Notes under the pieces: model-generated
Seen by the model: only the letters and a program-made list of their open reading frames with translations
What the model was told of the DNA's origin: nothing
Database searches by the model: none
Assembly: GCF_030034735.1 (NCBI RefSeq)
Contig: NZ_CP125370.1
Coordinates: forward strand, 3,410,001 to 3,474,000
DNA from: Paenibacillus sp. RC334
GTDB lineage: Bacteria > Bacillota > Bacilli > Paenibacillales > Paenibacillaceae
Length of the DNA: 64,000 nt
Direction: 5' to 3'
Part shown: positions 15,502-40,833 of the stretch, one piece after another
How the letters are laid out: each line of letters opens with the position of its first letter
How positions within the stretch are numbered: position 1 is the first letter of the stretch
Translations under genes and position numbers: made by a program

Positions 15502-15532
15502 TTGGATTAAGAACACTTGTTCTGTATATAAT
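15502..15532 (+). promoter_or_regulatory. LexA-like box within a promoter for the first polymerase remnant
   Basis: TTGGAT (15502-15507), GAACACTTGTTC (15511-15522) and TATAAT (15527-15532). The LexA core ends four bases before the -10 box, the same spacing as upstream of the intact uvrX gene at 30253. The box is preserved although its gene is broken. Confidence 0.75.
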
Positions 15533-15606
15533 ACTACTATATGAATTTACATTCAAGAATATTTTGGAAAGACGATCAGCATACATCTGGAGAGGAGGTT
15601 GTAACA

Positions 15607-16077
15607 TTGAACAAACGCGGAAAAAAAACTATATTTTTAGCAGACTGCCAAAGCTTTTATACCAGCATTGGAAAGGCCGACAATCCCGAATACCACCATA
15701 AGCCGCTAGTTGTTGCTGGTGACCCTTCGCTGCGTTCGGGCATTATCTTGGCTGCGTGTCCACTTGCTAAAAAATACGCTATATCTACAGCAGAGCGTTT
15801 GGGGGAAGCGATAAAAAAATGTCCTGACCTTACCATTGTACGCCCGCGCATGCAGCATTATATCGACGTCTCATTAAAAATAACAGAAATTTATAACGAG
15901 TATACGGATTTGGTTGAGGTTTTCAGTATTGATGAGCAGTTTTTAGACATAACGGAAGCCTCTCCCTGTTCGGAGATCCAGTGAGTATCGCAAGTGAAAT
16001 TCAACAAAAAGTAATGGCACAGACAGGGGTATGGATTCGCATCGGCATCAGTTCCAATAAAATGCTCGCTAAAATGG
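15607..16077 (+). pseudogene. UvrX-type Y-family DNA polymerase, N-terminal remnant
   Basis: The TTG start at 15607 follows GGAGAGGAGG. The frame matches residues of the intact copy: KTIFLADCQSFYTSIGKAD with the first catalytic Asp, then LVVAGDPSLRSGIILAACP, then EVFSIDEQFLDI with the SIDE active-site motif. Near 15965 a frame change occurs, after which LFGDPVSIASEIQQKV and GVWIRIGISSNKMLAKM continue to about residue 157. Homology then stops abruptly at 16077. This is the 5' third of a lesion-bypass polymerase gene. Confidence 0.88.
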
Positions 16078-16518
16078 TATTTAGACAAACTAAATTTCTT
16101 GTACATAATTATAGAATCCTGTAGGAACAAGATATTTAACGAATAAAAGTGATGTACAGTATTCAATTGCTTTGTTTATTGTCTTCTGAAAAAGTTTTAG
16201 ATTAAAAGATTAAGTTATAGACTAGGAAAATAAAGTATTCGACTGGTCCTAGAATGAGGGCTAACATGTCTGATAACAATTCACTAACTTTACCTCTAAT
16301 TTCTAAATATTGTAGAGGTCTTTATGTTTATTAAACTGTTAGATAAGGAGTATAAATCCATTTTTTAAGTCTGTTGAAATTCAAATCAGTATCCTATTCC
16401 AGAAGGATCTAAAGTGGTTTCTAGCAACCATACAGCAAACCATGTCGTTATAGTCCATAAGCATTCAGATAGTTTGCTGCTATTCTAAAATAACGAATTT
16501 ATCTAATACCATCATTAT
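16078..16518. other. AT-rich stretch without a recognisable gene
   Basis: Homology to the polymerase ends sharply at 16077 and the guanidine exporter genes begin at 16519. Between them I see no coding region, no tRNA and no clear inverted repeat. The abrupt left border is a candidate insertion or deletion junction. Confidence 0.5.
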
Positions 16519-16833
16519 TCAGCTTACCAGCTTTAGACCAACTGCTGAACCAAGTACCATCGCAATGAACAAAATTCTCGCAGTATTACGTGGTTCACCA
16601 TAAAAGATCATACCCAATATGGCCCCGCCCGAAGCTCCAATACCGGTCCAGACGGCATAGGCTGTTCCCATTGGTAGTGCTTCCATGGCCAGGTTAAGAA
16701 AGAAAAAGCTCAATCCAAAGCCTCCAAGCAAGTAGAAAATGGACAGGAAATTCCGGTCTTTATGGAGCTTATTAATCATGAGAACTCCAATCATCTCAAA
16801 TACGCCTGCCAAAATTAGTAATACCCAGTTCAT
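16519..16833 (-). CDS. ykkD: SMR family guanidinium exporter subunit YkkD
   Basis: A 104-aa four-helix small multidrug resistance protein. The membrane-embedded Glu is in LAGVFEMIGVLMINKL (E13). The conserved MGTAYAVWTGIGASGGAILG is the SMR helix-3 signature. It is encoded three bases after ykkC, so the two are co-translated and would form the heteromeric antiporter. SMR proteins behind a ykkC riboswitch are Gdx-type guanidinium/proton antiporters, which fixes the likely substrate. Confidence 0.93.
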   Translation of the reverse strand: MNWVLLILAGVFEMIGVLMINKLHKDRNFLSIFYLLGGFGLSFFFLNLAMEALPMGTAYAVWTGIGASGGAILGMIFYGEPRNTARILFIAMVLGSAVGLKLVS

Positions 16834-16836
16834 ACG

Positions 16837-17178
16837 TCAGTGCACCTCTTTTCCTTGTTTCTTCTCTTTGCTCTGTATTTTGAGTCCTACAACTCCGAAC
16901 AGAAGTAGCCCGATCAACATCAATTTAGATCCCTGTACTTCAGCACCAAACAACAAAATATCTGCCAATACAGTACCAGCCGTTCCCAAACCGACAAACA
17001 CTGCATATACTGTTCCTACTGGAAGCGTACGGGAAGCCATAATCATGAGTATGAAACTTACAAAAATGGCGACTAAAGTCCCTCCCCACTCTAACCATCC
17101 ACTAGCATGTTTCAGGCCGATAACCCATCCGACTTCAAATAATGCCGCAATTACAACAGATAACCATGTCTTGTTCAT
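16837..17178 (-). CDS. ykkC: SMR family guanidinium exporter subunit YkkC
   Basis: A 113-aa four-helix SMR protein. The conserved Glu is in VIAALFEVGWVIGLKHASG (E15), and PVGTVYAVFVGLGTAGTVL is helix 3. A short charged tail (QSKEKKQGKE) ends the protein. It is first in the ykkC-ykkD operon under a guanidine-I riboswitch. Export of toxic guanidinium is therefore the probable role. A CTTCCTCC complement gives a good ribosome-binding site just upstream of the ATG. Confidence 0.94.
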   Translation of the reverse strand: MNKTWLSVVIAALFEVGWVIGLKHASGWLEWGGTLVAIFVSFILMIMASRTLPVGTVYAVFVGLGTAGTVLADILLFGAEVQGSKLMLIGLLLFGVVGLKIQSKEKKQGKEVH

Positions 17179-17237
17179 TCTGTGCTTCCTCCTTTTTGAT
17201 AACGCTGCAAATGTAGTATGGGTTTAAAGCAGCAATT

Positions 17238-17290
17238 GAAAAAAAGCCTGAGATCATACTGCATACAGCAGTTTTTCTCCCAGGCTTTTA
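17238..17290 (-). terminator. Guanidine-I riboswitch expression-platform terminator
   Basis: On the minus strand AAGCCTGGGAG pairs with CTCAGGCTT across an inner hairpin CTGCTGTATGCAG, then TTTTTTT. The 5' arm is the 3' end of the aptamer, so guanidine binding would prevent termination. Confidence 0.9.
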
Positions 17291-17366
17291 TCCCTCCGTG
17301 ACACAGTACGACGACTGTGAGTTTTCTCTCGGACCAGCCGATATTATATCGCGGAACCCTAGAAAA
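17270..17366 (-). ncRNA. ykkC guanidine-I riboswitch aptamer
   Basis: Minus-strand leader of ykkC. The consensus blocks are all present: CTAGGGTTCCG (17352-17362), CTGGTCCGAGAGAAAACTC (about 17311-17330), ACGGAGGGATAAAAGCC and TGGGAGAAA (17274-17300). These are the invariant loops of this class. Confidence 0.97.
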
Positions 17367-17392
17367 CATTTTTGAATTCAATTATGGCTAAT

Positions 17393-17420
17393 ATTATACA
17401 CATAAGTAAACAAATTACAA
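17393..17420 (-). promoter_or_regulatory. Promoter for the ykkC leader
   Basis: On the minus strand TTGTAA (17415-17420), 16 nt, TATAAT (17393-17398), about 25 bases ahead of the aptamer. Confidence 0.7.
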
Positions 17421-17551
17421 TATAAAATAATAAAGATTCGGATATTATCAGGTAGTGCTTGCTAAGTAAGCTGTCGAATGTTAAAAAGGAGTAGACCCGA
17501 ACCCTTGCTCAATATCACAGTTTTATTACTGGAAAGATGCATTTACTAAAC

Positions 17552-18549
<998 letters not shown>

Positions 18550-18573
18550 AATTAACTCCTTTGCACCTATTTT

Positions 18574-18634
18574 GTTGCAAACGCAATAAAAATGGTATAT
18601 ATTAAATTTACCCTAATTTTGTTGCATTTGCAAC
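18574..18634. promoter_or_regulatory. Two MarR-type operators in the divergent promoter region
   Basis: GTTGCAAACGCAA (18574-18586) and GTTGCATTTGCAAC (18621-18634, perfect palindrome with a TT centre). The first overlaps a TTGCAA -35 element of a rightward promoter (TATATT at 18598-18603). The second overlaps the TTGCAA -35 element of a leftward promoter (TAAATT -10 after 17 nt). A dimeric repressor bound at both would control both directions. Confidence 0.75.
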
Positions 18635-18663
18635 ATGAAATTATGATAAAGAGGTCGAGTACA

Positions 18664-19308
18664 GTGAAATATGTTTTTTTTGTATTAGGAATTTTTATAT
18701 TATCCCTTGGAATTTCGTTCACTATACAATCAGACCTTGGGACTTCACCTTTTGATGCACTTTTGGTAGGACTGTCCATAAATGTGGGGCTTACTGTGGG
18801 AAGTTGGGAAATAATAATAGCTTTAATATTGATATGTTGTAATTCACTTTTAAAAAGACAAAGACCAGAATTTTTAGGGTTGTTAACAGCATTTATAACG
18901 GGTATTGGTATTGATATGTGGCTTTTTTTATTGCACAATTTGATAACACCTGAACTATGGTACAGCAAAGTTGTTTGTTTTGGAATTGGTTTAGTTCTTG
19001 TAGGATTAGGAACTGCAACATATTTACAGACAAATTTCGCACCCATTCCAGTTGACCGATTAACATTAATCATACAAGAATTAACTAGAACAAATCTATT
19101 TTTTTCGAGAACATTCATTTACCTCATATTCTTGATAATAGCAGTTATTTTAAATGGACCCATTGGCGTTGGAACTTTGTTAACCGTTTGTTTAGGGGGG
19201 CTAATACTCAATTACTTTATGCCATTTACTGAAAAGGTACTTGACCGCATACTAACACACTCTGGTACATCACCAAATCATGATAAAGATAAAAAGCATT
19301 CTATATAG
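18664..19308 (+). CDS. YczE/YitT-like integral membrane protein
   Basis: A 214-aa protein with about five helices. The opening FFVLGIFILSLGISFTIQSDLGTSPFDAL is the YczE-family signature, and PIPVDRLTLIIQ lies in a conserved polar loop. B. subtilis YczE is needed for production of the lipopeptide bacillaene/surfactin group, but the molecular function is unknown. The GTG start at 18664 follows AGAGGTCGAG; the frame is open 72 bases further but without a ribosome-binding site. It is divergent from marR and probably controlled by it. Confidence 0.82.
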   Translation: MKYVFFVLGIFILSLGISFTIQSDLGTSPFDALLVGLSINVGLTVGSWEIIIALILICCNSLLKRQRPEFLGLLTAFITGIGIDMWLFLLHNLITPELWYSKVVCFGIGLVLVGLGTATYLQTNFAPIPVDRLTLIIQELTRTNLFFSRTFIYLIFLIIAVILNGPIGVGTLLTVCLGGLILNYFMPFTEKVLDRILTHSGTSPNHDKDKKHSI

Positions 19309-19322
19309 AATGCTTTTTATCT
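19289..19322 (+). terminator. Terminator of the YczE-like gene
   Basis: GATAAAAAGCATTCTATA / TATAGAATGCTTTTTATC is a near-perfect long stem spanning the stop codon, with T residues on both sides, so it can act bidirectionally. Confidence 0.85.
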
Positions 19323-19621
19323 TTCTTGTTCAACTAACCTGATCCGTTAAAAGATGTAATAACATCCGTTGATTTCGATACAGAATTGTATTTTGTACTT
19401 AGTTCCAGACCTACGGCCGAGGAAATTTCTTACGTATTGAACCTCATTTTTTTCCAAGTTGACACTGAAGCTTGATGCTCATATTTCTTTGTTTCGATCT
19501 TAAGTTTCTCTAGAAGAATTGGTACTGTTATTTGTCTCTCAATTGGTACTTTAATTGTGTCTAATTCATTTTTATAATGTGTTTGTATTTTGAAGGTCAA
19601 TTAATAAAGGAGTGTAGCATT

Positions 19622-20536
19622 ATGTTCTGTGGATTATCTGCTTTTCCACTCACCCCAGTTAACGAGACAGGTATTAACGAAAAAGCATTTGTAACACTGA
19701 TTCAACAATTAGTTGCAGCTGGTGTAGACTCAATTGGTGCATTGGGTTCAACTGGAAATTATGCATATCTTAATCGAGAAGAACGTTTACGTGTTCTTCG
19801 ACTTGCTGTCCATTCAGCTGAGGGGATTCCCGTGATGACAAGCATAAGTGCGATTCGTACTTCTGAAGTACTTCGATTAGCGGAAGATGCACAAAGAGCA
19901 GGAGCAAGCGCAGTGCTGCTAGCCCCTATCTCCTATCAAACACTAACTAATGACGAAGTATTTTTACTCTATGAACAGGTGACGAATTCACTCTCCATTC
20001 CACTTTGTGTATATGATAATCCGAGTACCTCACATTTTCATTTCAGCGATGAGTTGCACGGTCGAATTGCTGAGCTACCTAACGTTAGTTCTATCAAGAT
20101 TCCTGGAGTACCTTCTGATCCTGAAGCAGCCAAGACACGCATTAGAAAACTGCGAACGGCCATTCCTCCCCATGTAACTATAGGAGTAAGTGGAGATTCA
20201 TTTGCAGTCACTGGCTTGAATGCAGGCTGTGAAGCATGGTACTCAGTTCTCGGTGGTTTGTTTCCAAATGTGTGCCTAAAAATGACCCGTTTGGCCCAGG
20301 CCGGTTTTGCTGACGAAGCGAAACGACTCTCGGCACTACTTGAACCGATTTGGACGTTATTTCATCAATATGGTAGCCTTCGTGTTATTTCAGCAGCAGC
20401 AGAAATAAGTGGCTTGATCTCAAGTCCCAGTCTTCCTTTACCCTTACAACCATTGAATCAATCAGCTAGAGAACACTTGGAATTCATACTAAAGGATATT
20501 CAGACTACAGAAACATCCTGTTCCCCATTCGGCTAA
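19622..20536 (+). CDS. Dihydrodipicolinate synthase/N-acetylneuraminate lyase family protein
   Basis: A 304-aa TIM-barrel aldolase. It has GALGSTGNYAYL (the family GTTGE-type substrate loop) near residue 44, LCVYDNPSTS with the catalytic Tyr, and VSSIKIPG with the Schiff-base Lys near 164. The canonical GTTGE is replaced by GSTGN, so it is unlikely to be the housekeeping DapA; a pyruvate-dependent aldolase of other substrate is more likely. The ATG at 19622 is eleven bases after AAAGGAG. A broken DMT transporter follows 74 bases downstream, probably once co-transcribed. Confidence 0.85.
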   Translation: MFCGLSAFPLTPVNETGINEKAFVTLIQQLVAAGVDSIGALGSTGNYAYLNREERLRVLRLAVHSAEGIPVMTSISAIRTSEVLRLAEDAQRAGASAVLLAPISYQTLTNDEVFLLYEQVTNSLSIPLCVYDNPSTSHFHFSDELHGRIAELPNVSSIKIPGVPSDPEAAKTRIRKLRTAIPPHVTIGVSGDSFAVTGLNAGCEAWYSVLGGLFPNVCLKMTRLAQAGFADEAKRLSALLEPIWTLFHQYGSLRVISAAAEISGLISSPSLPLPLQPLNQSAREHLEFILKDIQTTETSCSPFG

Positions 20537-20610
20537 TACCTTTTCGAAGGGGAGACTACTAAGCACGTTTGCTGTGAAATTTTTCTTTATGAGTGTTGGA
20601 GGAACAACAG

Positions 20611-21255
20611 ATGTGGTTCACATTTGCAATTGGCGCTGCTTTTTTCTTTGGCTTACATGGTATCTTCTATCAATGGACGTCTCAACGGTCTATTGATCGG
20701 AATCTGTTGTTTGTTGGGGTGTATGTATCCAGTACAATCCTGGCATTAATTATGAATAATGTACGCAAATCAAACTTGGAGTTACAAGGCCTGGCTCGGC
20801 TTATTAATGGGTATTTTTTCTTTTATGGCCAATACGTTCTTATACAAAGGTTATGCTGTTGGTAGAGCTTCAGTCATAGCATTTTTTTCGGGACTAACGC
20901 CTATGCTTGTTGTCCTGCTAGCTGCTTTGCTTTGGCAAAAGACGCTTACTTTAGTGCAGCTAGTCGGATTCTGCATCATTATCCTCTCTCTAATCGTCGT
21001 TAGATACCAGCGAGATCTGCAAGTAGACAGTATCAAGGCTGGCAATGGGGCATACTGGCCATCTTGTTTTATAGCTTCACAGACCTTTCCTCAAAACAAG
21101 CTTTACTTTACGGAGTATCTATTTTTCCTGTTTTGACAATTATGTTCATGACAAGTAGCATATTATTTGCTGGAGCATACTTTGTAATTAAGATTAGACA
21201 AGATCCTTCTTCAACAGATATAACTTTTAATGAAGCAAAACAATTCGGAGCATAA
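20611..21255 (+). pseudogene. EamA/DMT transporter with two frameshifts
   Basis: The first frame has AIGAAFFFGLHGIFYQWTS (helix 1). After a shift near 20795 the second frame continues with WLGLLMGIFSFMANTFLYKGYAVG and LAALLWQKTLTLVQLVGFCIIILSL. After another shift near 21055, FYSFTDLSSKQALLYG and IFPVLTIMFMTSSILFAGAYFV follow. Even if repaired, the protein would be shorter than the ten-helix family norm. The ATG at 20611 still has GGAGG upstream. The gene was probably a companion of the DapA-family enzyme. Confidence 0.85.
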
Positions 21256-21598
21256 AATGGAGTTAATCCATCTTGTACTCTTCCCTTAATATATAATGTG
21301 CGTAATCAACCTAAATTACAGTTTCTAAAAGCTTGCTATTGTATTTGCTACGCAGGCAAATCACATCGAAACCCAGCATATTTTTCATTCAATGAAGCTC
21401 TATTCCCTCTGACTAGTACTCCTCTATGGTTTTTCAAACTACATACATTTGTGCTCAACCGAGAAAGCTTGCTACCTGTATTCAGTCTAGCCACTGATCA
21501 ATTGACGAACCGAGTCAGTATATCCATAACACGCGTAACCATGGCAGCTAGTAGCATTATTACGTGCTATTTGTCATCTAATCCAATCCGTGGATTTC
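21256..21598. other. Stretch without a recognisable gene
   Basis: An open frame of about 100 codons runs here on the plus strand, but its translation has no family resemblance I can name and no ribosome-binding site precedes its ATG. It ends inside the neighbouring N-acetyltransferase gene. I treat it as non-coding or a remnant of unknown origin. Confidence 0.4.
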
Positions 21599-22393
21599 TT
21601 AGAGGCAGGAGTTAAACAAGCCGAAATGGTGTTTTGCAATACTACAAAACATTTCTTTATCTATTATCTCTGTTTTTTTCATTTCTCCATTCACCCATTC
21701 AGTGAACGAAGTATCTGTTAATGTTAAGTTTCCGTTATCGGTGAATTTAGTGACTATCGGTCTCTTATTAAAGTTCGATCCAAGATGTTCAACGGTGAGC
21801 TTTTGAACTTCATTTAACTCAGTTATATCCTGTATGGCGTTTTTGGAATCAAAAGCATAACCAATCTTCCAATCAGTATCCTTGTACCTCATTTTCATAC
21901 AAAAAATAAAATCCCCATACCCACTGCTTACATTTATTACTTTGAATTCCCCATTTTCAGAAGTCACCTTATCTCCATTTAAAGGAACAATCTTTAATGG
22001 TGAATACCCTCCAAACCCAACATCGACGAGGTACAACTTATCGTTATGATTGATTATAATAGCAACATGTGTTTTTCCTATCGCACTCCAGCTTCGATTA
22101 GTATAGTCGTACCTCATACAGCGAATTAGCTTTGCATTATACCCATTTTCACTCAAAAAGAAATAAAATAATGAATTTAATTCATAGCAAAGTCCACCTT
22201 CATTGCGTTCGATTATTTTTTTTAATAGATTTTCAGGTGTTATTTCACTCGACGAACTGTTTATAATACTTAAATTCTCAAATGGAATTGTTTTTGCTGT
22301 TTTTTCAATAATAGTATTTAAATCTTCAAGTTCTAATTTATTGTCCCAACTTATTCCTAATCTATTACACAATAATTTATTTAGGTTTAACAT
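21599..22393 (-). CDS. Arylamine N-acetyltransferase
   Basis: A 264-aa NAT-family enzyme that moves acetyl groups from acetyl-CoA to arylamines or hydrazines. The catalytic triad is visible: C69 in RNEGGLCYE, H109 in GKTHVAII and D124 in LVDVGFGG. PFENLSI near 37-43 is another conserved block. The length is typical for bacterial NATs. The gene stands alone. A second, heavily truncated NAT C-terminus lies at 28216-28333, so the region once held two paralogues. Confidence 0.93.
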   Translation of the reverse strand: MLNLNKLLCNRLGISWDNKLELEDLNTIIEKTAKTIPFENLSIINSSSSEITPENLLKKIIERNEGGLCYELNSLFYFFLSENGYNAKLIRCMRYDYTNRSWSAIGKTHVAIIINHNDKLYLVDVGFGGYSPLKIVPLNGDKVTSENGEFKVINVSSGYGDFIFCMKMRYKDTDWKIGYAFDSKNAIQDITELNEVQKLTVEHLGSNFNKRPIVTKFTDNGNLTLTDTSFTEWVNGEMKKTEIIDKEMFCSIAKHHFGLFNSCL

Positions 22394-22559
22394 ATTGGTT
22401 CATTCCTCCATAATTAGTATCGAAACCAGTGCATTTCAAAGCAAGACACCTCTTCCGGGGTGAAATGTAGACATTGAGTCTATCATTTGCTAGCAAAGAG
22501 ATGTGTTGGATATCGTACGGAATTAAAACTTCATTCGTGGTCGGTTAAAGAAAATACTA

Positions 22560-22799: not shown

Positions 22800-22871
22800 T
22801 CTAGTTAAAGCTGTAAAATTCGTAATATCTTAATCCTTTTCTTCGTTAGCAACAGAACTATCTACTAAAAA

Positions 22872-22912
22872 CTAAAAAACAACCAGCTATAATAGCATAG
22901 CTGGTTGTTATA
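22872..22912 (-). terminator. Terminator of the beta-glucoside operon
   Basis: AACAACCAGCTAT / ATAGCTGGTTGTT is a perfect 13-bp stem with a short loop, followed by TTTTTTAG on the minus strand, 45 bases past the PTS gene stop. Confidence 0.9.
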
Positions 22913-22956
22913 CGTTTTTTAATTTACTTCCAAGATCAAATCCATGCTGTCCTGTG

Positions 22957-24926: not shown

Positions 24927-26393
<1,467 letters not shown>

Positions 26394-28984: not shown

Positions 28985-30253
28985 TTATTTATAATGCCCC
29001 CCGATTTTTAGGGACCTTTCCAGCGCCTGACCGGCGTTGGTCAAAGAGGAAGCTCTTACAATAGCTGCACTACCATAGCGTTCTTTAATGCTATCTGTTG
29101 CTTTTTCCAGGGAACGTGTACGCTCCTGATCTTCAAAGAAGGAGAGTTGATATGTTTGATCGTCAACCAGTTCACTTAAAGTGACACCTAGGCGTCGTAT
29201 CGGCATGCCATTCCAAAAATTATAAAATATTTTTTTTGCTGCATCGTACACTTTATTCGTATTGTTAGTCGGGTCAGTAAGCTTCATTTGCCTGGAAAAT
29301 CCAGTAGGGGCTTCATATGGACTGCATATACAACTGACAGTCACAACAGAACCCATATACCCTTTACGACGGCTGTCTCGACAAACCTCTTCGGTGAGTT
29401 CAAGCAAAATCGTTTCAATCTCATTCTTGTTCGAATAATCCTTGGGCAGGGTCATTGCATGGCTTATCGACTTTTGCGGGGAATCGAGCGTAGATGGGAT
29501 AACAGGACTATCGTCCAAACCGTTAGCAGTTCTCCACATAATCTCAGCCTGGATGTCCGACTGTTTTCCAAAATGACTGCGGAGTTTCGTCTTAAGTTCT
29601 GGCAAAGTCATTCTGCCTATATCTCCAATAGTTGTTATGCCAAGCCGTACAAAATGTGCTGTCATCCGCGATCCCACTCCAAACATTTTGCTGACCGGCT
29701 GTGGCCACAATAAATGTTCAACTTCTGCTCTGGATAGTGTGAAAATCCCGTTTTTGTTCTTCTTGGCCCAAATGTCAGTTGCAATTTTTGCAAGTATCTT
29801 ATTGAAGCTGCTTCCTATTCGAACCCAAACTCCAGTTTGTAAAAGAACATTTTGCTGAATGTCTTTTGCAATAACTAATGAATCACCAAACGTTCTTACA
29901 CTACCAGAAATATCCAAGAACTGTTCATCAATACTAAACACTTCTACAAGATCAGTATACTCCTTGTATATATTCGTGATTGCTAAAGAAACATCAATAT
30001 AGTATTTCATCCGTGGTCGTACGATAACAAGTTTAGGACACTTTTTCACAGCTTCTCCCAGACGCTCTGCTGTAGTTACACCAAAACTTTTTGCAATGGG
30101 GCACGCCGCTAAAATGATTCCCGACCTACGTGAAGGATCGCCAGCTACCACAAGTGGTTTATTTCTATATTCTGGGTGAGAAGCTTTTTCCACGCTAGCG
30201 TAAAAACTTTGACAATCTGCTAAAAAAATTGTTCTCTTATCTTTTTTAATCAT
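28985..30253 (-). CDS. uvrX: UvrX-type Y-family DNA polymerase (intact copy)
   Basis: A 422-aa translesion polymerase. D13 in FLADCQSFY and D109/E110 in FSIDEQFLDI are the metal-binding acidic residues. It also has VRIGSSFNKILAKIATD (palm/fingers), FGVGSRMTAHFVRLGITTIGD (helix-hairpin-helix thumb) and a C-terminal little-finger domain from about 245. This is the SP-beta UvrX / YqjW subfamily, induced by SOS in Bacillus. I start at the ATG at 30251-30253 with TTGGAGGTG upstream. A LexA-like box lies in the promoter. Remnants of related genes occur at 15.6, 32.7-32.9 and 40.6 kb. Confidence 0.95.
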   Translation of the reverse strand: MIKKDKRTIFLADCQSFYASVEKASHPEYRNKPLVVAGDPSRRSGIILAACPIAKSFGVTTAERLGEAVKKCPKLVIVRPRMKYYIDVSLAITNIYKEYTDLVEVFSIDEQFLDISGSVRTFGDSLVIAKDIQQNVLLQTGVWVRIGSSFNKILAKIATDIWAKKNKNGIFTLSRAEVEHLLWPQPVSKMFGVGSRMTAHFVRLGITTIGDIGRMTLPELKTKLRSHFGKQSDIQAEIMWRTANGLDDSPVIPSTLDSPQKSISHAMTLPKDYSNKNEIETILLELTEEVCRDSRRKGYMGSVVTVSCICSPYEAPTGFSRQMKLTDPTNNTNKVYDAAKKIFYNFWNGMPIRRLGVTLSELVDDQTYQLSFFEDQERTRSLEKATDSIKERYGSAAIVRASSLTNAGQALERSLKIGGHYK

Positions 30254-30301
30254 GTTGCACCTCCAAAAAGCAAATGAATAAGAGCATACATTCACAAGTC
30301 A

Positions 30302-30323
30302 ATTATATACCAAACATACGTTC
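30302..30323 (-). promoter_or_regulatory. LexA-like box and -10 of uvrX
   Basis: On the minus strand GAACGTATGTTT (30312-30323) is followed after four bases by TATAAT (30302-30307). One base deviates from the GAAC-N4-GTTC core. The geometry equals that at 15511-15532. Confidence 0.75.
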
Positions 30324-30492: not shown

Positions 30493-30990
30493 TTACGCCA
30501 AAAGCATCATATCGATTAAATCTGCTGCTAAAGATTTAGATCCACTCACACCTTTTACATATTTTAAAGGACCGTCAGATGACCAATTCATTGTACTGAG
30601 CTTCTTTACTCTCTTATGCATCATATTATAATCGATTCTACCACGCTCATTTATGCACATTGTTAGAAGCTTGGACCCCGCAATAGAAAGAGCATCTAGA
30701 CAAAAAATATGAGTGATACGGTACTCCCCGTAGTCAATCCATTCCTTGGAGAATGTATCTTTAATTGATCGATAATAGTTTAATGCAACTTGGTATCTCT
30801 CTTCGTTGCTCGTCCCTATTAACTTTTGTTCCTTAAATAACAATTGAGTAGTTCGATACAGATTTTGGAGAGTAATGTGACGTCCGCGAGTGCGTTTACC
30901 TATTATGCTGCCAATATTGTGGAAGGGACTCTCTGGTCTAGTGATAAGTTCAGTCGCGATCCAGCTAGACTCATCAGAATTACGGCGTTA
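30493..30990 (-). pseudogene. C-terminal remnant of a DGQHR/DndB-like protein
   Basis: The frame is open from just after a stop near 30995 and reads SSWIATELITRPESPFHNIG, then RTRGRHITLQNLYRTTQLLF, then DYGEYRITHIFCLDALSIAG, ending LAADLIDMMLLA. This pattern, including the LSTMNWS segment, resembles the C-terminal half of DGQHR-domain proteins such as DndB, the regulator of DNA phosphorothioation. The DGQHR motif itself and the whole N-terminal half are absent, and no dnd genes are nearby. The assignment is from memory of the family and only moderately certain. Confidence 0.5.
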
Positions 30991-31846: not shown

Positions 31847-32694
<848 letters not shown>

Positions 32695-32811
32695 CTGGAT
32701 CACAGTCCCGTCAAGCCGGAAACATTGGATACACCCCCAAAATCGATCGGTCATATAATGACCCTGCCCCGGGATTATGTTCAGTCTGCGGAAGTGGAGA
32801 CTATCCTGCTT
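32695..32811 (+). pseudogene. UvrX-type polymerase remnant, middle segment
   Basis: The plus strand reads LDHSPVKPETLDTPPKSIG and then HIMTLPRDYVQSAEVETILL. This aligns with about residues 246-284 of the intact UvrX (LDDSPVIPSTLDSPQKSIS, HAMTLPKDY). It ends at 32811, where an inverted piece of the same gene family begins. Confidence 0.85.
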
Positions 32812-32948
32812 GGCATCAATATAATATTTCATATGGGGACGGGCAAATCACAAGCTCAGGACACTTCTTGAGAGCTTCACCGAGCCTTTTTGCTGTAGAC
32901 ACTCCGAAGCTTTTTGCCATAGGACAGGCTGCCAAAATAATTCCGGAT
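32812..32948 (-). pseudogene. UvrX-type polymerase remnant, N-terminal segment in inverted orientation
   Basis: The minus strand reads SGIILAACPMAKSFGVSTAK, then RLGEALKKCPELVI, then after a one-base shift PHMKYYIDA, matching about residues 43-88 of UvrX. It is head-to-head with the residue 246-284 segment, so an inversion or joining of two copies has occurred at about 32812. Confidence 0.85.
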
Positions 32949-33139
32949 CCTCTTTACCAAGACTTAATTTTATAAATTCTTGTTCATAAGGTGGTTAATC
33001 GATATATATGTATTTATCGATAGATAAGAGCAGCTCCATATAAAATAGAAGCTGCTGCTTCCTGTTTATTTTACAACTTTAAAATATTTTAAAAAGGAGG
33101 CGTAAAATGCCTGAACTAACTGCAATGAAATGTAATGAG

Positions 33140-34033: not shown

Positions 34034-34095
34034 ATTAGTATATCCTCCTCAAAGTAACAAAATTAAAATATGATTTACCTTATTGACTGATGGCT

Positions 34096-35019
34096 CTAAA
34101 ATATATCAACAGATGAAGGTGCAGACGCAGAAAAATTAAAGTTTTGGCGGATATTAAACAACCATTTTTCATAGATTTCTGGTCGCCAATCTGGAGAACC
34201 TGTAAGTGGATTGGCTCCAAACAAAGTTAGCATTTGACGTGATTTATCAACGAGTGACAGATTCAGCGTTGCGACTTGTAATTCTTCTCTGGATCCGGCT
34301 GGTTTAGCATAATAAGCTGTACTTAAGATAGATGACGAAGGACCAATAATGAGACTCTCACCTGAAAAAGATAAATTACAATCGTATCCTACCAGATTGG
34401 AACTCATTATAAATAATGCATTTTCAATTACACGTGCTTTGAGTTGAGTAAAATAACTGTCTTCCCAGCCTATAGCAGATGCCGTCGGATTAAGATACAA
34501 CCTAGAGCCAAGAGCGGCATAATACCTTACCACTTCGGGGAATGTATAGGTATCGAAACATATACCAATACCTACAGGTCCCCATGGTGTATCAAATAAC
34601 AAAGGATCGTTTCCTTTTGTGGCCCACAACAGCTCATGACCAACAGGATGAATTTTTCGGTAAGCACCTACAATGCCTCCTGGGCCAACAACGAGTGCTG
34701 TATTGTAAAGTATAGAAGAATCTATAGCATCGCGTTCTGGCATACCCACTATAATATATGCATTATGTTTTTGAGCAAGTAAAGCCAGCTCGTTGGCTGC
34801 TGGACCTGGTATTGTTTCCGCATTTTCAATTTGCATTGCTGTGGAATCTTTCTCAATGTTATACCCGGTAAGTGCCATTTCCGGGAAAAGAATAATTTTA
34901 GCACCCTGTTCAGCAGCAGATTGAATATATTCTTTAATTCGAGCTAAATTCCCAGTTTTATTTCCCCATTCTGCATGGAAATTAATATTTGCTACCGTAA
35001 CGATATTTTCATAAGACAT
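34096..35019 (-). CDS. Carbon-nitrogen hydrolase (nitrilase superfamily)
   Basis: A 307-aa cytoplasmic amidase/nitrilase fold. The catalytic triad is E47 (IILFPEMALTGY), K122 (YRKIHP) and C154 (GIGICFDTYTFPE). The tail from about 270 (GANPLTGSPDWRPEIYEKW) is unlike the omega-amidase core and may set specificity. The ATG at 35017-35019 has AAAGGAG upstream. It is first in a nitrilase-SDR operon preceded by a WYL-type operator. Confidence 0.92.
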   Translation of the reverse strand: MSYENIVTVANINFHAEWGNKTGNLARIKEYIQSAAEQGAKIILFPEMALTGYNIEKDSTAMQIENAETIPGPAANELALLAQKHNAYIIVGMPERDAIDSSILYNTALVVGPGGIVGAYRKIHPVGHELLWATKGNDPLLFDTPWGPVGIGICFDTYTFPEVVRYYAALGSRLYLNPTASAIGWEDSYFTQLKARVIENALFIMSSNLVGYDCNLSFSGESLIIGPSSSILSTAYYAKPAGSREELQVATLNLSLVDKSRQMLTLFGANPLTGSPDWRPEIYEKWLFNIRQNFNFSASAPSSVDIF

Positions 35020-35148
35020 AGTTACTCTCCTTTTGTATGGATTGCGCTACTTGAGTTAAACTGAAATAAAATTGGTTCAGGCATGTTTATGAAGTTGGTT
35101 TATCCAGTGATTATTGAGACATTCCTGATTTGATCAGCAGGTATCTAA

Positions 35149-35188
35149 ACTATACAGAAACACTACTGACAACTGTATGGCAGTAGTG
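35149..35188 (-). promoter_or_regulatory. WYL-regulon operator 1 with -10 box
   Basis: CACTACTG / CAGTAGTG arms (35161-35188) around AC-aactgtat-GG. The minus-strand -10 box TATAGT lies at 35149-35154. The TACTGAC half-site begins 15 bases from the -10 edge, exactly as in the other two sites. It stands upstream of the nitrilase-SDR operon. Confidence 0.75.
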
Positions 35189-35419
35189 TTTTTGGTGTTC
35201 AAATATTTATTTTTTAGTTTGACAAATGAATTTTCAAACCATAAACTGATGAAATTGAAATAGAAAGTTCTTCCATATTAGCAAAACTCATTCTATTTCA
35301 ACTGTGGTACAGGCGATCCGAAATTGGGCCACCTGTACCTTTTTTTGTGCACGAATTCATGCACACAAGCAATCAAAACGAAGGTGGAAATAAAAAAGGT
35401 GGAGAGATTTAGGAATAAC

Positions 35420-36370
35420 AGCGAGGATATATTTTAACTGGTATTTTACTTGCCACAACGATATCAACACCGATTTTTGGTAAGTTAAGTGATTTATACG
35501 GAAGAAAACCAGTCTTTGTGATTGGCAGCATCCTTTTTTCTCTTGGTTCTTTTTGGTGTATGTTTGCCCATTCAATGGAGTCGCTAATTATATATCGGAT
35601 AATTCAGGGGATAGGAGCAGGAAGTGTAGTTCCGGTTACTTTTACAATTGTAGGAGATATCTATAAAGCAGAAGAGAGGGGCAAAGGATTGAAAAGCAGG
35701 CAAAGGAACCAGTCGTTCCGCTAAAACTGTTTCGTATTCGTGATATCATGATTTCATGTATAGCCGGCTTTCTGGTAAGTTCATTGATTATAGGATTGAC
35801 TAGTTATTTACCACTATGGATTCAAGGTGTCTACGGGGGTAATGCATCTTCCGCTGGAGTGGCACTATTACCAATGACTATAGGCTGGTTTATTAGTTCA
35901 ATCGTTAGTGGAAGAATCATGTTTTCTCTCGGCCCTCGGATTACATGTATTATTGGTTCAAGTTTTATCGTTTTTGGCGCTGTCACTCTGGCGTTTTTTT
36001 GAATAGTAGCTCACCGTCCTGGTTTTTACCGCTGTGTACGCTGCTGTATGGTATAGGTTTTGGTTTTTGTGTTACTGTCTTTACTGTTATTGCGCAGTCT
36101 GCAGTTGGATTTAAACTAAGAGGATCGTCAATTGCACTATCAACGTTTTTAAGGAGTCTGGGTTCTACCTTGGGAGCAGCGGTATTTGGCTCATGGCTTA
36201 ATTATAGAACTACTTCGGAGGTTCAACAAGAAGACCTGCTATCTCAAAAAGTTACACAGTCGGATATCGACTCGATTCTTTCACCACATTCACATCAGGC
36301 AGGGGATCAGGTCGCTCTGCTCTTGCGTGGTCTTCTGGAACACAGTTTGCAATCCCTCTTTAATGGTTTC
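35420..36370 (+). pseudogene. MFS drug transporter (EmrB/QacA type), deleted and frameshifted
   Basis: The surviving first part is GYILTGILLATTISTPIFGK, LSDLYGRKPVFVIGS (motif A) and YRIIQGIGAGSVVPVTFT, so the first helix is lost. A deletion near 35690 jumps to VPLKLFRIRDIMISCIAGF in the second half. A shift near 36000 then follows, with LYGIGFGFCVTVFTVIAQSAVG and STLGAAVFGSWLN. The end merges with an inverted azoreductase remnant at about 36370. In the original gene this would be a 14-helix proton-driven multidrug exporter. Confidence 0.87.
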
Positions 36371-36532
36371 AGAATTTATTTCCGGCACCTGTAAATCATA
36401 CAGATCAAAATGAATAATTTTATGTTGCGGATAAGTTGCACGATAAGAATCCGCCAATTGCTGACCAACCGATAGAACGCAGGAATGAGAGGAGAATCCT
36501 GAATGTGCAGTGAGAAATAAAATAGTGGACAT
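36365..36532 (-). pseudogene. FMN-dependent NADH-azoreductase, N-terminal remnant
   Basis: The frame STILFLTAHSGFSSHSCVLS, GQQLADSYRATYPQHKIIHF and DLYDLQVPEI matches the flavodoxin-like N-terminus of AzoR/AcpD. Homology stops after about 55 codons where the convergent MFS remnant begins. The promoter, with a WYL-type operator at 36617-36642, is preserved. Confidence 0.75.
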
Positions 36533-36603
36533 GTTGGTGTCTTCCTTCCAGTAAGTAAATTGTCTAACTTGGCAACCCATAAAAATATATGCGCTTAGAT
36601 TAA

Positions 36604-36642
36604 ACTATACAAAAATGCTACTGACGATAGTGTGTCAGTAGC
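36604..36642 (-). promoter_or_regulatory. WYL-regulon operator 2 with -10 box
   Basis: Perfect 9-bp arms GCTACTGAC / GTCAGTAGC (36617-36642) with an 8-base centre, and TATAGT on the minus strand at 36604-36609. It precedes the azoreductase remnant and overlaps the last codons of the WYL regulator gene. Confidence 0.78.
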
Positions 36643-37582
36643 GCTCTAGCATCTTTTGAATTTCTTTGTGGACCTGATCCCGAAAGGATTCCGGTTCGAG
36701 AACAATTACATCAGACCCCCAGTTGAGAATCCAGGACAATAATTCTTCCGGTTGACGAACACGGAAATTCACCACATATCCGTCCGGACATAGCTCGGCA
36801 TCTTCCATATAATAATTGTTTGTTTCTTGAACCTTACCTGCAAGTTCTGCTTTAAACAATGCACGGATATGAATATGACGATCATCTTTCCGTCTATATT
36901 CATGCAGATTGAAATCCTCTGGAAGCTGAAAAGGTTCATCTGTAATAACAAGATCACTAATTCGGGAGATTTTAAAGTGGCGGATATCTTCACGCAAATC
37001 ACATCTGGCGAGCAACATCCACATGCCTTGTAGCAATACTAGTCCGAAAGGTGCCACGGTCCGGATGGTTTCACTATAGCCATTCGACTCTTTTACGCCT
37101 TTACGGTATTTAAATCTAACTTTTTTTCCATCAAGCATAGCGATACGTATAATCGCCAGATCATTTCTTGTAGGTTCTCCTGCTGCTGGTTCTTCAGGAG
37201 GTAAAAGTCGGATGTTACTGTAATTCCGACCAGCCTCTTCTCTTACTTTTTGAGGTAAGATTGTTTCTATTTTAGCACGAGAAGAACGAGCATTTTTGCT
37301 AAGGTTGCTATCAAAATGGTGTTCTATAAAATCAGAACCAATTAATAATGTTAAAGCCTCTTCCATCGTAAAACTAATGGGAGGCAGAAAGTATCCCTCC
37401 ATTAAGGAATAACCTGATCCCGGCAGACCTACAATTGGAATACCCGCTTCGCTAAGAGCCTGGATATCACGATAGATTGTTCGTACACTGGTTTCTACCC
37501 GCGCTGCCAGCTCTTCAGCTTTTAATACACGACTGCGTTGCAATTCTAACACAATGGCTAACAGGCGTTCTGTTTTATTCAA
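36635..37582 (-). CDS. HTH/WYL-domain transcriptional regulator (YafY family)
   Basis: A 315-aa regulator. The N-terminal DeoR-type helix-turn-helix reads LKAEELAARVETSVRTIYRDIQAL at about 20-43, followed by EAGIPIVGLPGSGYSL. The WYL domain spans about 140-225, with the degenerate WML in GMWMLLARCDL. A C-terminal WCX region follows (residues 235-315). WYL domains sense small ligands or nucleic acids. It is the second gene after sfsA (16-base gap). Three matching palindromes nearby suggest that it controls its own operon, the nitrilase-SDR operon and the former azoreductase gene. Confidence 0.9.
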   Translation of the reverse strand: MNKTERLLAIVLELQRSRVLKAEELAARVETSVRTIYRDIQALSEAGIPIVGLPGSGYSLMEGYFLPPISFTMEEALTLLIGSDFIEHHFDSNLSKNARSSRAKIETILPQKVREEAGRNYSNIRLLPPEEPAAGEPTRNDLAIIRIAMLDGKKVRFKYRKGVKESNGYSETIRTVAPFGLVLLQGMWMLLARCDLREDIRHFKISRISDLVITDEPFQLPEDFNLHEYRRKDDRHIHIRALFKAELAGKVQETNNYYMEDAELCPDGYVVNFRVRQPEELLSWILNWGSDVIVLEPESFRDQVHKEIQKMLERY

Positions 37583-37598
37583 CTTATGGTCTTCCTCC

Positions 37599-38354
37599 TT
37601 AGCCAGTGAAATTCTCAGTCATTTCATAATAATTAACCAGGTCAACTCCAGTGGAAGTGATTTTAAAATTGATTTGCCATATTTCGATTCCTTGCTGGAT
37701 TGAAGCATATATAGATTCTTTAATATAATGACTATTTTTATTTTTCATGGCAGGTCGAAAGCCTTGGTTATTATACACTAAACAGGTTAATAAAATCGCT
37801 CGTTCATTGGCTTCTAAACTTCCAGCCAACTCACTAATATGCTTGATGAATCGCTCATGAGAATTAAAGTCGCTCCCTTTTTGTTCAGTAATATGAGCGG
37901 GAATTTCGATCTGCAATTGCTGAAGAGGGGTTTTAACCTCAATATAGGTGTTATTCACTAGGAAATCTAACTTTGAATTTCCGAGTTTCTGCTCTCGTTT
38001 CAATGTAGTTCCGTTTTTAACCATGTCTGATAACTGGTCGGTGACTATATAATGCTCTACATAACGATTAGCTGCATTTTGGTTAATACCGATCCAATTT
38101 TTCTGTTCTGAGTTAAGGTGGTCAAGTGATATAGCTTCAACAGTATAGGGTGTTTTTCGTTTTAGATCAGTGCTATGAGACAACAAACAAGCAATATCTC
38201 GAATAACAATATTACCGATTCGTCCAGTAGTAGGGCAATGGCAATCATAAATGATTCCATTAATCTCTACTTCCATGATAAAACGATTTCTACGCTTGCG
38301 AATTATCCCTTCCTGAAGAGGGGGCTCAAAAATAAATGGATTATTGTTTTTCAT
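37599..38354 (-). CDS. SfsA family protein (sugar fermentation stimulation/nuclease-like)
   Basis: A 251-aa protein with an N-terminal OB-like part (RRNRFIMEVEINGIIYDCHCPTTGRIGNI) and a central nuclease-like core, LDFLVNNTYIEVKTPLQQLQ, carrying the D-(x)n-E-V-K residues of restriction-endonuclease folds. SfsA proteins bind DNA and have been proposed as nucleases. The second conserved patch is ERFIKHISELA. The ATG at 38352-38354 follows CAGGAGA. It is first in the sfsA-WYL operon, with operator 3 about 150 bases upstream. Confidence 0.82.
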   Translation of the reverse strand: MKNNNPFIFEPPLQEGIIRKRRNRFIMEVEINGIIYDCHCPTTGRIGNIVIRDIACLLSHSTDLKRKTPYTVEAISLDHLNSEQKNWIGINQNAANRYVEHYIVTDQLSDMVKNGTTLKREQKLGNSKLDFLVNNTYIEVKTPLQQLQIEIPAHITEQKGSDFNSHERFIKHISELAGSLEANERAILLTCLVYNNQGFRPAMKNKNSHYIKESIYASIQQGIEIWQINFKITSTGVDLVNYYEMTENFTG

Positions 38355-38489
38355 TAGATGTCTCCTGGATAAGATCTGAATTGCTGTTCTTAGTGAATAT
38401 ATAGAAAAAAGCATACCAAGAAGGAGAAATTACAAGATGCAATTCAAAATCTCTATAGTCAGTGTATAGCTTGTTAACACTGCACCTTG

Positions 38490-38528
38490 ATTATATAAAA
38501 ACACTCCTGACAACAGTATGTCAGTAGT
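38490..38528 (-). promoter_or_regulatory. WYL-regulon operator 3 with -10 box
   Basis: ACTcCTGAC / GTCAGtAGT (38503-38528) around AACAGTAT, with one mismatched pair in the arms. The minus-strand TATAAT lies at 38490-38495, again 15 bases from the half-site. It is upstream of sfsA and the WYL gene. Confidence 0.75.
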
Positions 38529-38582
38529 ATTATTATACTAAAATCATTAAATTAGGAAAATTTGAAATTTTATAATATTTTC

Positions 38583-39182
38583 TTAAAAATCACCATCTTT
38601 GTACAACCTGCTTTTTGCAATGATCGCATGAGTCCCAACATCCCAACTTGATTTCCATAAGTTCTTGCGTTTCATGCGCACCATTTGAGCTGCATAATGA
38701 ACAAATGACTGGGAAAAATGATCCAAATGCTTATGGTAATGGAGTTGGGCTTCCAACTGAGCATGCCCACCTTTGCGTGCAATAGTTAACATATTAAATC
38801 CCTGTAGCATCATATTGCAAAAGGCAAATGTCTGGTGTCGCCGGGTCTTATTCTTTCAATATCACCATACTTTGGGACAACCATTTCATCATAAAATCGA
38901 TCAATCAAGGTAATAAATTGATAAGAACCTATTCTCGGGAAGAATAGACAGTCGTAAAGCTAAGGAATCTTTGCTTTGTTGCTGTCTTACTAAGAAACAA
39001 CCAATTTGTTCCAGTTGATAATTTCCACTCCGGTCAGAAGGTTTTTTGATACCAATTTTCTGATCCACAATTCCGTAACAGATAAATAGTCGGCTGCTTT
39101 ATTTTTCTGCTCCAAAACATTATTTTTATTAAAGTAAACCCAAAGAAATTATTGTCCAAGAACAATGACTCGATTTCGCTAC
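38583..39182 (-). pseudogene. Tyrosine recombinase remnant, catalytic C-terminal part
   Basis: Scattered frames on the minus strand read GSYQFITLIDRFYDEMVVPK, then GDIERIRPGDTRH, then LQGFNMLTIARKGGHAQLEA and QLHYHKHLDHFSQSFVHY. RH and GGHAQ...HYHKH look like the R-H-x-x-R / G-H / Y regions of a site-specific recombinase. The N-terminal two thirds are reduced to uninterpretable sequence between about 38940 and 39180. It lies downstream of another recombinase remnant on the same strand, as in multi-recombinase elements. Confidence 0.6.
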
Positions 39183-40437
39183 TCATTTTTTTGTTAATTT
39201 TGGCAAGTAATCTTTATACAATTTGTTGCATCCGGTTCTCAATTTTTTTCTCATTCGTTCCGTATTACCTTGATAAACCAGCGATGATGAAAGATTAGAG
39301 TCTCCTCTTGGCAGTGCAATATCGTATGGATTATCAGCTTCTTCGGCCAGAAGATTTGTAAATATGCCGCGGCCTAAATGAGTGGACCACTTATATTCCT
39401 CCAACTTGATTGTAAACAAGGTCATCCGAATTAGATGATTTCCTGAGTCGCTTTTAAAAACTCTTGTTTTAACCTACTGAAATAAGCCCTGTAGCTTGTC
39501 CTGACATGGCTTTACCATCTCGATTTACAAATAACGCAACCGACCCATCCACAGGGGAATAAGTTTCTAAATGGTTTCGATACAATAACTGAAGCCAATC
39601 TTGAATTGGAAAAACAATCTGTCTTCTTGCTTTTTTAACACCATTCGAACCGGAACTATCTTTAAGATCCGTTCTCATATTTGTTTGTTGCAGCTTAACC
39701 ACTAAACCAAATTCTCCAAAGAAGCCGATTGAGGTCACATCTGATCTTCGGACGTTCACAAGCTCTCCTTGGCGGATTCCTCCAAAGCAATGCATATAAA
39801 CTCCCAAAGCAATGGGATTCGCGACTTTCACTACCAGCTCAATCAAAGGTAAAATATATTGTTCCGGTAAATCATGGGCTATATGGCCTTGCTTTTTTCT
39901 CGGCATGATGACCCCTTGAAATGCAGAAACCGTATATTTTTGATTCGATGTTCCGTAGAGGATTTTCTTTTTAAAGACACTTTCATCAACATGGACCAGC
40001 AGTTTTTTCTTCGCTAAGAACTCATAAAACAAGGTTAAGGTTCTCTCTGCTTTCCTTACAGTCATTCTTGTTTCCTCTGTTTTCATTAATTCGTTCAAAA
40101 AAGCAGTTGCATGATAAAATTGGAGCTCCCGCAAAGACGAAAGCTTGTACTTTATTCGGTTTTCAATAAGTATGTAATTTAAAAGCGCAAAGATAATTGG
40201 CGTGTAGTCTCTGGGAATTGAACGCTCTATATTTCCAGTAATGAAATATAAATTCCGATAAGGAGTGAACGCACATCCATCCATTTTTTTATTTTGTAAA
40301 ACGATCACAGCATGTTTATTAATAACAGGTTCGCGATCCCGATACTTTTTCCACAATTCAATTCCTACGCTTTGTACACCAAAACGCACCTCGTTAATCT
40401 TCCATGAAAAAGGTACGATTGAATTATTATGATTCAT
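39183..40437 (-). pseudogene. Site-specific tyrosine recombinase, frameshifted
   Basis: The main frame from 40437 gives 322 aa with HCFGGIRQGELVNVRRSDV, the first catalytic Arg box of tyrosine recombinases. It stops prematurely at 39469 after AMSGQATG. The other frame continues with YRAYFSRLKQEFLKATQE, and a third holds WSTHLGRGIFTNLLAEEADNPYDIALPRG and the C-terminal helix up to 39183. Two frameshifts and a stop therefore separate the conserved parts. It probably belonged to a transposon or integrative element carrying several recombinases in a row. Confidence 0.8.
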
Positions 40438-40597
40438 CTAAAGTCCCCCATGACTAATTCGTCTCATAGTTATGCCCATAGATTATTACATGAAATTCAA
40501 TACATTACCATATTTTAGTTATCATGTTAAATCGCTATTTATGCTCACACAGAAAAAAGGGAAGCAATAAAACCTGTGGGATATAAGGATTTACATC

Positions 40598-40833
40598 GTA
40601 ATTAATGAGGCAGCGACCGGGTTTTCCCGCCAGATAAAGCTGTCCGATCCTACAAACCGTGCCGAAAAAAATATATGAAACCGTGAAAAAAAATTTTTAT
40701 ACCTTTTGGAACCATATGCCTGTGAAGCGAGTGGGTGTCGCCTTAAGCGGCCTGATGGATGATCAGCTGTACCAGCTGGACTTTTTATGAAGATCAGGAG
40801 CGATCCGTCAAAATTGGCGGTCATTATAAATAA
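40598..40833 (+). pseudogene. UvrX-type polymerase remnant, C-terminal segment
   Basis: VINEAATGFSRQIKLSDPTNR runs into a stop at about 40673. After a short shift ETVKKNFYTFWNHMPVKRVGV and ALSGLMDDQLYQLDF follow, then DQERS and KIGGHYK with the stop at 40831-40833. These match about residues 313-382 and 415-422 of the intact UvrX, including its exact C-terminus. It lies on the same strand as the 5' remnant at 15607. Confidence 0.88.

Follow-up and report, generated by a model that had tools for sequence, protein, structure and literature searches.

The region analyzed in this work is a 64-kb stretch of the genome of Paenibacillus sp. RC334 (hereafter the window), corresponding to bases 3410001-3474000 of the single 5.98 Mb contig in which this genome is contained. 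Three pieces of uvrX, which codes for a Y-family SOS polymerase, are found in it between pbp and recG, along with a complete uvrX of a different type. The analysis deals with the way in which this gene became divided and with the islands that appear to be responsible, for which counterparts exist in other species.

The uvrX locus between pbp and recG

Sixty Paenibacillus genomes (numbered with the prefix G, RC334 being G000) were scanned for UvrX, pbp and RecG, and the native uvrX of G006, the nearest genome with an empty site, was used as query in tblastn searches. Copies of the type present at the pbp-recG place are referred to as native and those of the other type, carried by islands, as element-type. 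Three sites within the gene are labeled A (codon 157), B (near codon 245) and C (codon 284). The native locus in the window consists of the following features:

12874..15390, minus strand: pbp, conserved left neighbor of the native uvrX locus, with transglycosylase and transpeptidase domains
15511..15522, plus strand: LexA-type box upstream of piece 1, GAACACTTGTTC
15607..16077, plus strand: piece 1, native uvrX codons 1-157, ending at site A; 97.2% DNA identity to G006
32694..32812, plus strand: piece 2, native gene positions 735-853, from site B to site C; 80.5-87% DNA identity to five native-place copies
40607..40833, plus strand: piece 3, C-terminal part of native uvrX; 89% DNA identity over 200 bp to G006
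41433..43520, minus strand: recG, conserved right neighbor, with RecG domains

The original prediction had described three plus-strand remnants matching successive, non-overlapping and ordered parts of one uvrX, and this was borne out by tblastn: piece 1 corresponds to residues 1-116 and 116-157 (15607-15954 and 15951-16076, E 6e-83, with one frameshift), piece 2 to residues 243-284 (32686-32811, E 5e-17) and piece 3 to residues 318-372 and 412-422 (40620-40784 and 40798-40830, E 5e-19), all on the plus strand, in gene order and without overlap. A weaker match (31% identity, residues 258-334, E 2e-5) overlaps piece 3, and 20 shuffles plus one reversal of the region gave a single match, with E 4.7. 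DNA identity to the G006 gene is 97.2% for piece 1, 85.7% for piece 2 and 89.0% for piece 3, with piece 2 marginally nearer to G046 (87.0%), while 67-75% is reached against element-type copies and the G004 gene, apart from one 46-bp stretch at 80%. The left native flank is contiguous through piece 1 (97.2% over 3414 bp of the empty site, to position 3414 of locus L009), and the right one from gene position 1230 onward (95.5% over 2831 bp).

Other elements of the prediction also stood. The first remnant keeps its start codon, a TTG with a ribosome-binding-site-like GGAGG, and its LexA box at 15511; a like box is located 96-97 bp ahead of the gene start in G006, G015, G014 and G035, and the one in the window counts only through its position and this conservation, because the motif is found four times in the 64 kb as compared with 3.24 expected from shuffles. 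The last remnant represents the C-terminal part of the gene, with a match extending to residue 422; around 90 bp have been deleted inside it, between short direct repeats. The stretch between the remnants is AT-rich, as had been stated, with 38.1% GC (16078-40600) versus 46.5% and 49.8% in the flanks. The gene taken then as the intact UvrX yardstick (28985-30295) is indeed complete, but it is of element type, with about 68% DNA identity to native uvrX, and is not the native gene.

Related strains with one contiguous gene at this place, the search for which had been put forward as a check, do exist, and all three pieces are nearest to their native type. A single plus-strand uvrX lies between pbp and recG in G006, G033, G041 and G046, where the two neighbors are 2038-2087 bp apart; in the window the distance is 26 kb. 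While recG was found in 60/60 genomes, a pbp match of at least 88% identity adjoins it in 12, RC334 included. In G000, G035, G007, G014, G032 and G038, only a broken native gene or remnants of it are left, and these six genomes have a complete uvrX of another type within the interval, on the strand of pbp and recG. G015 and G004 present a contiguous uvrX in the native place, recombinant-looking in both. Beyond the twelve, genomes such as G052, G059 and G030 have a uvrX of 57-59% identity near recG, again on the strand opposite to it, which suggests a long residence of uvrX at this place.

No native uvrX was found in the RC334 genome outside the window, where the only Y-family match is a distant one (34-38% identity). 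It is split over two frames (1963610-1964816 of contig C1, residues 21-228 and 255-433); this gene may be broken in RC334, being in a single frame in relatives such as G035 and G007.

Shared breakpoints and uvrX islands in other species

Placed on the empty site (L009), the window junctions fall at 3414|, |3677 and 3795|, that is, at gene positions 472, 735 and 853. Native sequence breaks at position 472 in the window and in G035 alike, and in Paenibacillus polymyxa M1 (G014) it does so at 469, at most 3 bp from site A, the remainder resuming at 472 after 23.9 kb. Resumption at position 735 is again common to the window and G035, and a native fragment of G007 ends exactly at 734, the break at site B being shared by the window and these two relatives. 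Piece 2 begins at the first base of the G035 C-terminal piece and ends at the core of site C. The parts of islands recognized between the pieces are:

16078..16221, no strand assigned: AT-rich cargo-side end of an A-type island, a counterpart of the left end seen in the P. polymyxa M1 island, which occupies this site too
28985..30295, minus strand: complete element-type uvrX with IMS and IMS_C domains; likely translation start at 30253
30312..30323, minus strand: LexA-like box upstream of the element-type uvrX, GAACGTATGTTT, with TATAAT downstream; a motif match only
30496..30987, minus strand: remnant of a DGQHR (DndB-like) cargo gene, 83.5% amino acid identity to a P. polymyxa M1 island gene
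32647..32693, no strand assigned: element end abutting piece 2 at site B, with the same junction in G035; by eye a reversed C-type cargo-side end (TATGCACAC..GATAC)
32813..32953, minus strand: fragment of another uvrX copy abutting piece 2, 89.6% identity over 134 bp to the element-type copies of G032/G038
38581..39021, minus strand: ginC and ginB remnants of a C-type island, 76-77% identical by blastn to the P. ihumii island; ginC residues 361-408
39183..40437, minus strand: ginA remnant, tyrosine recombinase, with 39469-40437 still open

The left inserted end is 97.8% identical over 324 bp to that of G035, and 16083-16221 shows 89.9% identity over 139 bp (E 2e-50) to the left end of the M1 island. 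The element behind the break at site B is probably a relative of the C type, to judge from its end sequence. The minus-strand fragment next to piece 2, which was absent from the earlier list of remnants, is 70-73% identical to native-place copies. Its joint with piece 2 at 32812 was considered as a plain C-type end (11 of 12 bases match the P. ihumii end by eye), but the bases run on as minus-strand uvrX, and a deletion through a stretch common to both would account for the joint. The complete element-type uvrX has 99% and 94% DNA identity to the copies in G035 and G007, respectively, and groups with the one inside the M1 island (SH-aLRT 93). The ginA remnant encodes a product with 71-73% amino acid identity to GinA of P. 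cisolokensis, P. ihumii and P. sanguinis, whose genes each adjoin a UvrX C-terminal piece starting at residue 290/291.

The insert of P. polymyxa M1 ends in four genes, of 401, 844, 563 and 202 amino acids (L016, 10181 down to 4124). The first and third give weak tyrosine-recombinase matches and the second contains an excisionase-type helix-turn-helix. Blocks homologous to these four genes are present in P. ihumii, P. sanguinis, P. periandrae and plasmid pAZOPL1 of P. lautus, with remnants only in the window. GinA matches Phage_integrase above cut-off in P. sanguinis and XerA/XerC weakly, and GinC matches Phage_integrase below cut-off. For GinB, searches of Pfam, NCBIfam and PDB sequences gave no match to a recombinase; it is predicted to be a tyrosine recombinase from conserved residues read by eye, the R, R, H and Y positions being fully or almost fully conserved when GinB and GinC proteins are aligned. 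The small gene in the place of ginD (194-202 amino acids) encodes a protein for which no clear domain was detected in domain searches, GinD of GInts being characterized by a helix-loop-helix. The ends carry hybrid imperfect repeats with a 7-nt core (attB CTATTGG, attL CTACTGG and attR CTGTTGG in the comparison of Paenibacillus sp. Cedars with pAZOPL1), and similar ones are seen at other sites. A Tn7-like element, suggested by the end repeats, was dropped after the four-gene operon was found. From their gene layout and ends, the islands are considered to be of the type of the GInts, or ginABCD islands (Bardaji et al., 2017; PMC5385486).

With regard to relatives of ginA, none was found in a phage collection. 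A 5.1 kb plasmid record labeled Campylobacter jejuni and possibly a mislabeled contig (NZ_CP029055.1, 393-1588) encodes a protein 45% identical to GinA. Genome G631, of the same class, has two equal-scoring copies of a ginA relative on two contigs (C1:357727 and C2:100475; L072 and L079).

Seven named ginA loci were obtained from a scan of genome contigs, and in 5/7 ginA adjoins a UvrX C-terminal piece. This piece starts at residue 287-291 beside the C-type ginA of P. ihumii, P. cisolokensis, P. sanguinis and P. periandrae; outside the seven loci, it does so beside the C-type ginA of pAZOPL1 as well. In Paenibacillus sp. Soil766 the C-terminal piece, from residue 157/158 onward, adjoins a frameshifted ginA of the M1 type, and 45 kb separate it from the N-terminal piece, which ends around residue 161. 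A Sporosarcina metagenome-assembled genome (MAG) contig starts inside ginA and has at its far end a uvrX N-terminal piece ending at 291/292. The A type (codon 157) is represented by the left junction of the window, P. polymyxa M1 and Soil766, and the C type (near codon 284) by the middle and right remnants of the window, P. ihumii, P. cisolokensis, P. sanguinis, P. periandrae and pAZOPL1. Starting at the junction, 6.7 kb of the P. ihumii and P. cisolokensis islands match at 99.5% identity, whereas the UvrX C-terminal pieces next to them share 66% and 39% identity, respectively, with native UvrX. The island of pAZOPL1 is compact (9556 bp, at codon 284), with little else besides uvrX as cargo, and its empty site is available in the uninterrupted uvrX of a related plasmid from Cedars; the flanks align at 92% and 84% and overlap by 7 bp at the core, at codon 284 of the Cedars gene. 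Separately, two uvrX halves at contig ends were noticed in G012, and a C-terminal piece starting at residue 241 in G031.

The cargo end could be read in eight islands that target uvrX (P. polymyxa M1, P. ihumii, P. cisolokensis, P. sanguinis, P. periandrae, Soil766, the Sporosarcina MAG and pAZOPL1), the link of this end to the gin-bearing contig being inferred in P. cisolokensis and P. periandrae. A complete uvrX of the island's own is present in 8/8, near the cargo end or within the cargo, and a yolD-like match is beside it in six. The P. sanguinis island repeats the layout of the host operon (small gene, uvrX, yolD). Among P. ihumii, P. cisolokensis and P. sanguinis, the island-borne uvrX genes share 92-94% DNA identity, while the N-terminal pieces of the hosts share 62-71% over aligned stretches; the island-borne copy of the Sporosarcina MAG is only 35% identical to native UvrX. 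By comparison, no uvrX was found within the 20 kb read of three GInts located at other targets (G028, G308, G272), whose far ends were not located. A second copy of the neighboring target gene was also sought in these three and none was clear: there was no match in G028, those in G308 were confined to the ginC region, and in G272 an ABC protein with 35% identity belongs to a common family.

A model for uvrX-targeting islands and its alternatives

We are confident, if not certain, that the three pieces are what is left of one native uvrX, likely cut at fixed sites by GInt-type islands carrying a complete uvrX. The stepwise entry of accessory DNA into a single gene, as first proposed, is supported, and can be refined to site-specific, likely tyrosine-recombinase islands of at least two subtypes with different target codons. 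Each island would have a four-gene recombination operon at one end, with three genes for putative tyrosine recombinases and one for a small protein, and would be AT-rich at the opposite end. According to this prediction, the recombinases link a short site of the island with a corresponding core of about 7 bp within uvrX, at codon 157 for the A type, at codon 284 for the C type and near codon 245 probably for a C-type relative. The host gene would be split, and the uvrX of the island, mostly with yolD, would take over the role of SOS polymerase, driven from the LexA-controlled host promoter when in direct orientation or preceded by a LexA-like box of its own, which is the arrangement in the window. 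Since uvrX is also plasmid-borne, the same target could let an island pass between plasmid and chromosome.

Applied to the window, this model would start with the entry at codon 157 of an A-type island, of which the AT-rich end persists at 16078. Near codon 245 a second island would have entered, which its end sequence marks as a probable C-type relative in reverse orientation, after which the inner recombination operons and native positions 473-734 (codons 158 to 245) were presumably lost. A C-type island would have entered at codon 284, leaving piece 2 on one side and its decayed gin genes on the other, with its left end now apparently fused to the minus-strand uvrX fragment of a further copy. 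At least two islands would have entered, and cargo, a replacement polymerase and three native shards remain.

An event of this kind would also explain the uvrX of G015, which within the positions examined (701-1000) is native up to 837, save for foreign-type bases at 792, 811 and 824, and of foreign type from 858, save for a native-type base at 870, so that the switch brackets the codon-284 core. It would be a chimeric polymerase, although a single case could be due to chance. In the same genome, this apparently chimeric gene is followed by 3.7 kb of other genes (L012, 4212-7896), beyond which come the final bases of native uvrX, an arrangement resembling the traces of a decayed island.

Several observations weigh against the model. 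The whole case is built on sequence comparison, from which we infer the movement of the islands, as well as the order of events, recombinase action and polymerase takeover. The halves of the interrupted gene are on separate contigs in P. cisolokensis and P. periandrae, and the C-terminal piece of the Sporosarcina MAG lies beyond the contig. P. ginsengihumi (L068) has a short ginA fragment without uvrX alongside, and uvrX is absent within 1.5 kb of ginA relatives in 10/14 genomes (matches among 295) and in 8/9 (matches among 398, with the window as the exception); three genomes are in both lists. Independent relatives occupied at site B are lacking, the type of the end there was judged by eye, degradation at the right of the C-type island in the window makes that junction inexact, and an A-type gin operon was looked for in the window and not found. 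As for the replacement copies, they fall into more than one clade (6 changes on the tree), no yolD match was found in the M1 and Soil766 islands (2/8), and UvrX relatives appear on 21 plasmid records (20/21 from Paenibacillus), with yolD annotated alongside in 6 of the 12 shown.

This last abundance on plasmids implies that carrying uvrX may partly be ordinary cargo transport. That islands bear uvrX and yolD as common SOS cargo, without relation to the gene they target, is in our opinion rather unlikely, while deserving serious attention, also because the orientation of the own uvrX and its distance to the island end vary. It is countered by the full copy present in 8/8 uvrX-targeting islands, including one of 9.6 kb with little else, versus 0/3 other-target islands in the 20 kb read. 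We regard as very improbable that accessory DNA entered native uvrX unspecifically and in unrelated events, with common breakpoints inherited or due to chance. The window, G035 and G007 are closely related, so that in them the breaks at A and B might each go back to one inherited event; in addition, two Tn3 transposase fragments lie inside the M1 insert. Nevertheless, insertions at codons 157 and 284 recur in separate, distant species with gin operons alongside, islands 99.5% alike sit in strongly differing uvrX genes, and comparison with an empty-site plasmid gives an overlap of 7 bp at the core; unspecific insertion was largely refuted on these grounds and set aside. Finally, the alternative in the original prediction that the pieces are independent remnants of several element-borne copies does fit the minus-strand fragment 32813-32953, of element type in a locus where several uvrX copies exist, but deserves hardly any credence for the three plus-strand pieces and was discarded, all of them being nearest to native uvrX and pieces 1 and 3 being contiguous with native flanks.

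Going beyond the splitting of one gene by GInt-type islands, these would possibly constitute a self-compensating class that uses uvrX, found on plasmids and chromosomes, as a universal dock, each arrival destroying the resident polymerase and installing its own, and successive ones replacing or recombining the mutagenic polymerase of the cell; we advance this as a tentative idea, with slightly more doubt than conviction. SOS polymerases affect the mutation rate of bacteria under stress. If the idea is correct, the mutagenic polymerase of a lineage would be set by its mobile elements. It would also suggest a reason why Y-family polymerase genes are insertion hotspots in unrelated bacteria, namely their presence on both plasmids and chromosomes. 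The near-identical islands of P. ihumii and P. cisolokensis and the empty and occupied sites of Cedars and pAZOPL1 render recombination directly testable.

Relation to known elements and other observations

Published GInts excise as a circle, for which all four genes are needed. The islands share with them a four-gene operon at one end, encoding three tyrosine recombinases (predicted ones in the islands) and a small fourth protein, followed by cargo, an AT-rich other end, short imperfect hybrid att repeats and a strong site preference; they differ in that the targets named in the available text of that report are an ABC transporter gene and the ends of ssb, and it mentions no replacement copy of the target (PMC5385486). 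The integron-like elements (ILEs) in rulB of Pseudomonas are, according to the portion of the study available, likewise site-specific islands; they have three recombinases and break up a Y-family SOS polymerase gene, whether plasmid-borne or chromosomal, beside a LexA-controlled promoter (Rhodes et al., 2014; PMC4542609). However, they enter 123 bp into rulB, in contrast to codons 157, 245 and 284 here, and create an alternative rulB reading frame, with no complete replacement copy described in that portion.

Such a copy is known from RME of Vibrio cholerae, which, as described in the accessible part of the source, splits an SOS gene at a specific site and has a complete divergent copy of its target at one end and the integrase at the other, but its target is recA, and it is characterized by 9-bp inverted repeats and a phage integrase plus a XerS-type recombinase, without a gin operon (Rapa et al., 2014; PMC4405046). 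IME8 of Lysinibacillus sphaericus comes close in target, with tyrosine recombinases directed to the yolD-uvrX SOS operon at plasmid and chromosome sites; the site is, in contrast, in yolD, and the excerpt available gives two integrases plus Hp3 and reports no replacement polymerase (PMC13239906). SEs and Tn554 are similarly site-specific, with several tyrosine recombinases and a short core, whereas the corresponding extract sets SE proteins apart from GInt proteins and gives Tn554 no Tfp/GinC counterpart, a comparison made by description only (Mob DNA 2023; PMC10214605). Among the titles and abstract openings searched, no polymerase-replacing island was described. GInts, rulB islands and a recA island with a spare recA are known, and what looks new is the combination of splitting an SOS polymerase gene and bringing its replacement.

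Regarding other cargo, a DGQHR domain was detected in the M1 island gene, and DGQHR (DndB-like) genes recur (L015 15561-16559, L098 9396-10379, L066 16208-17191, L057 10465-11457 and window 30496-30987) in uvrX islands and in one island at another target. The P. sanguinis island (L054, 6164-10647) includes genes with SAVED, SMODS and ThiF domains, resembling a cyclic-oligonucleotide phage-defense set. In the window, a Guanidine-I riboswitch (17275-17373, minus strand; Rfam match above gathering score) is located upstream of two small genes (16519-17178), one of which (16519-16833) encodes a small multidrug-resistance-type protein, in an ordinary guanidine export layout.

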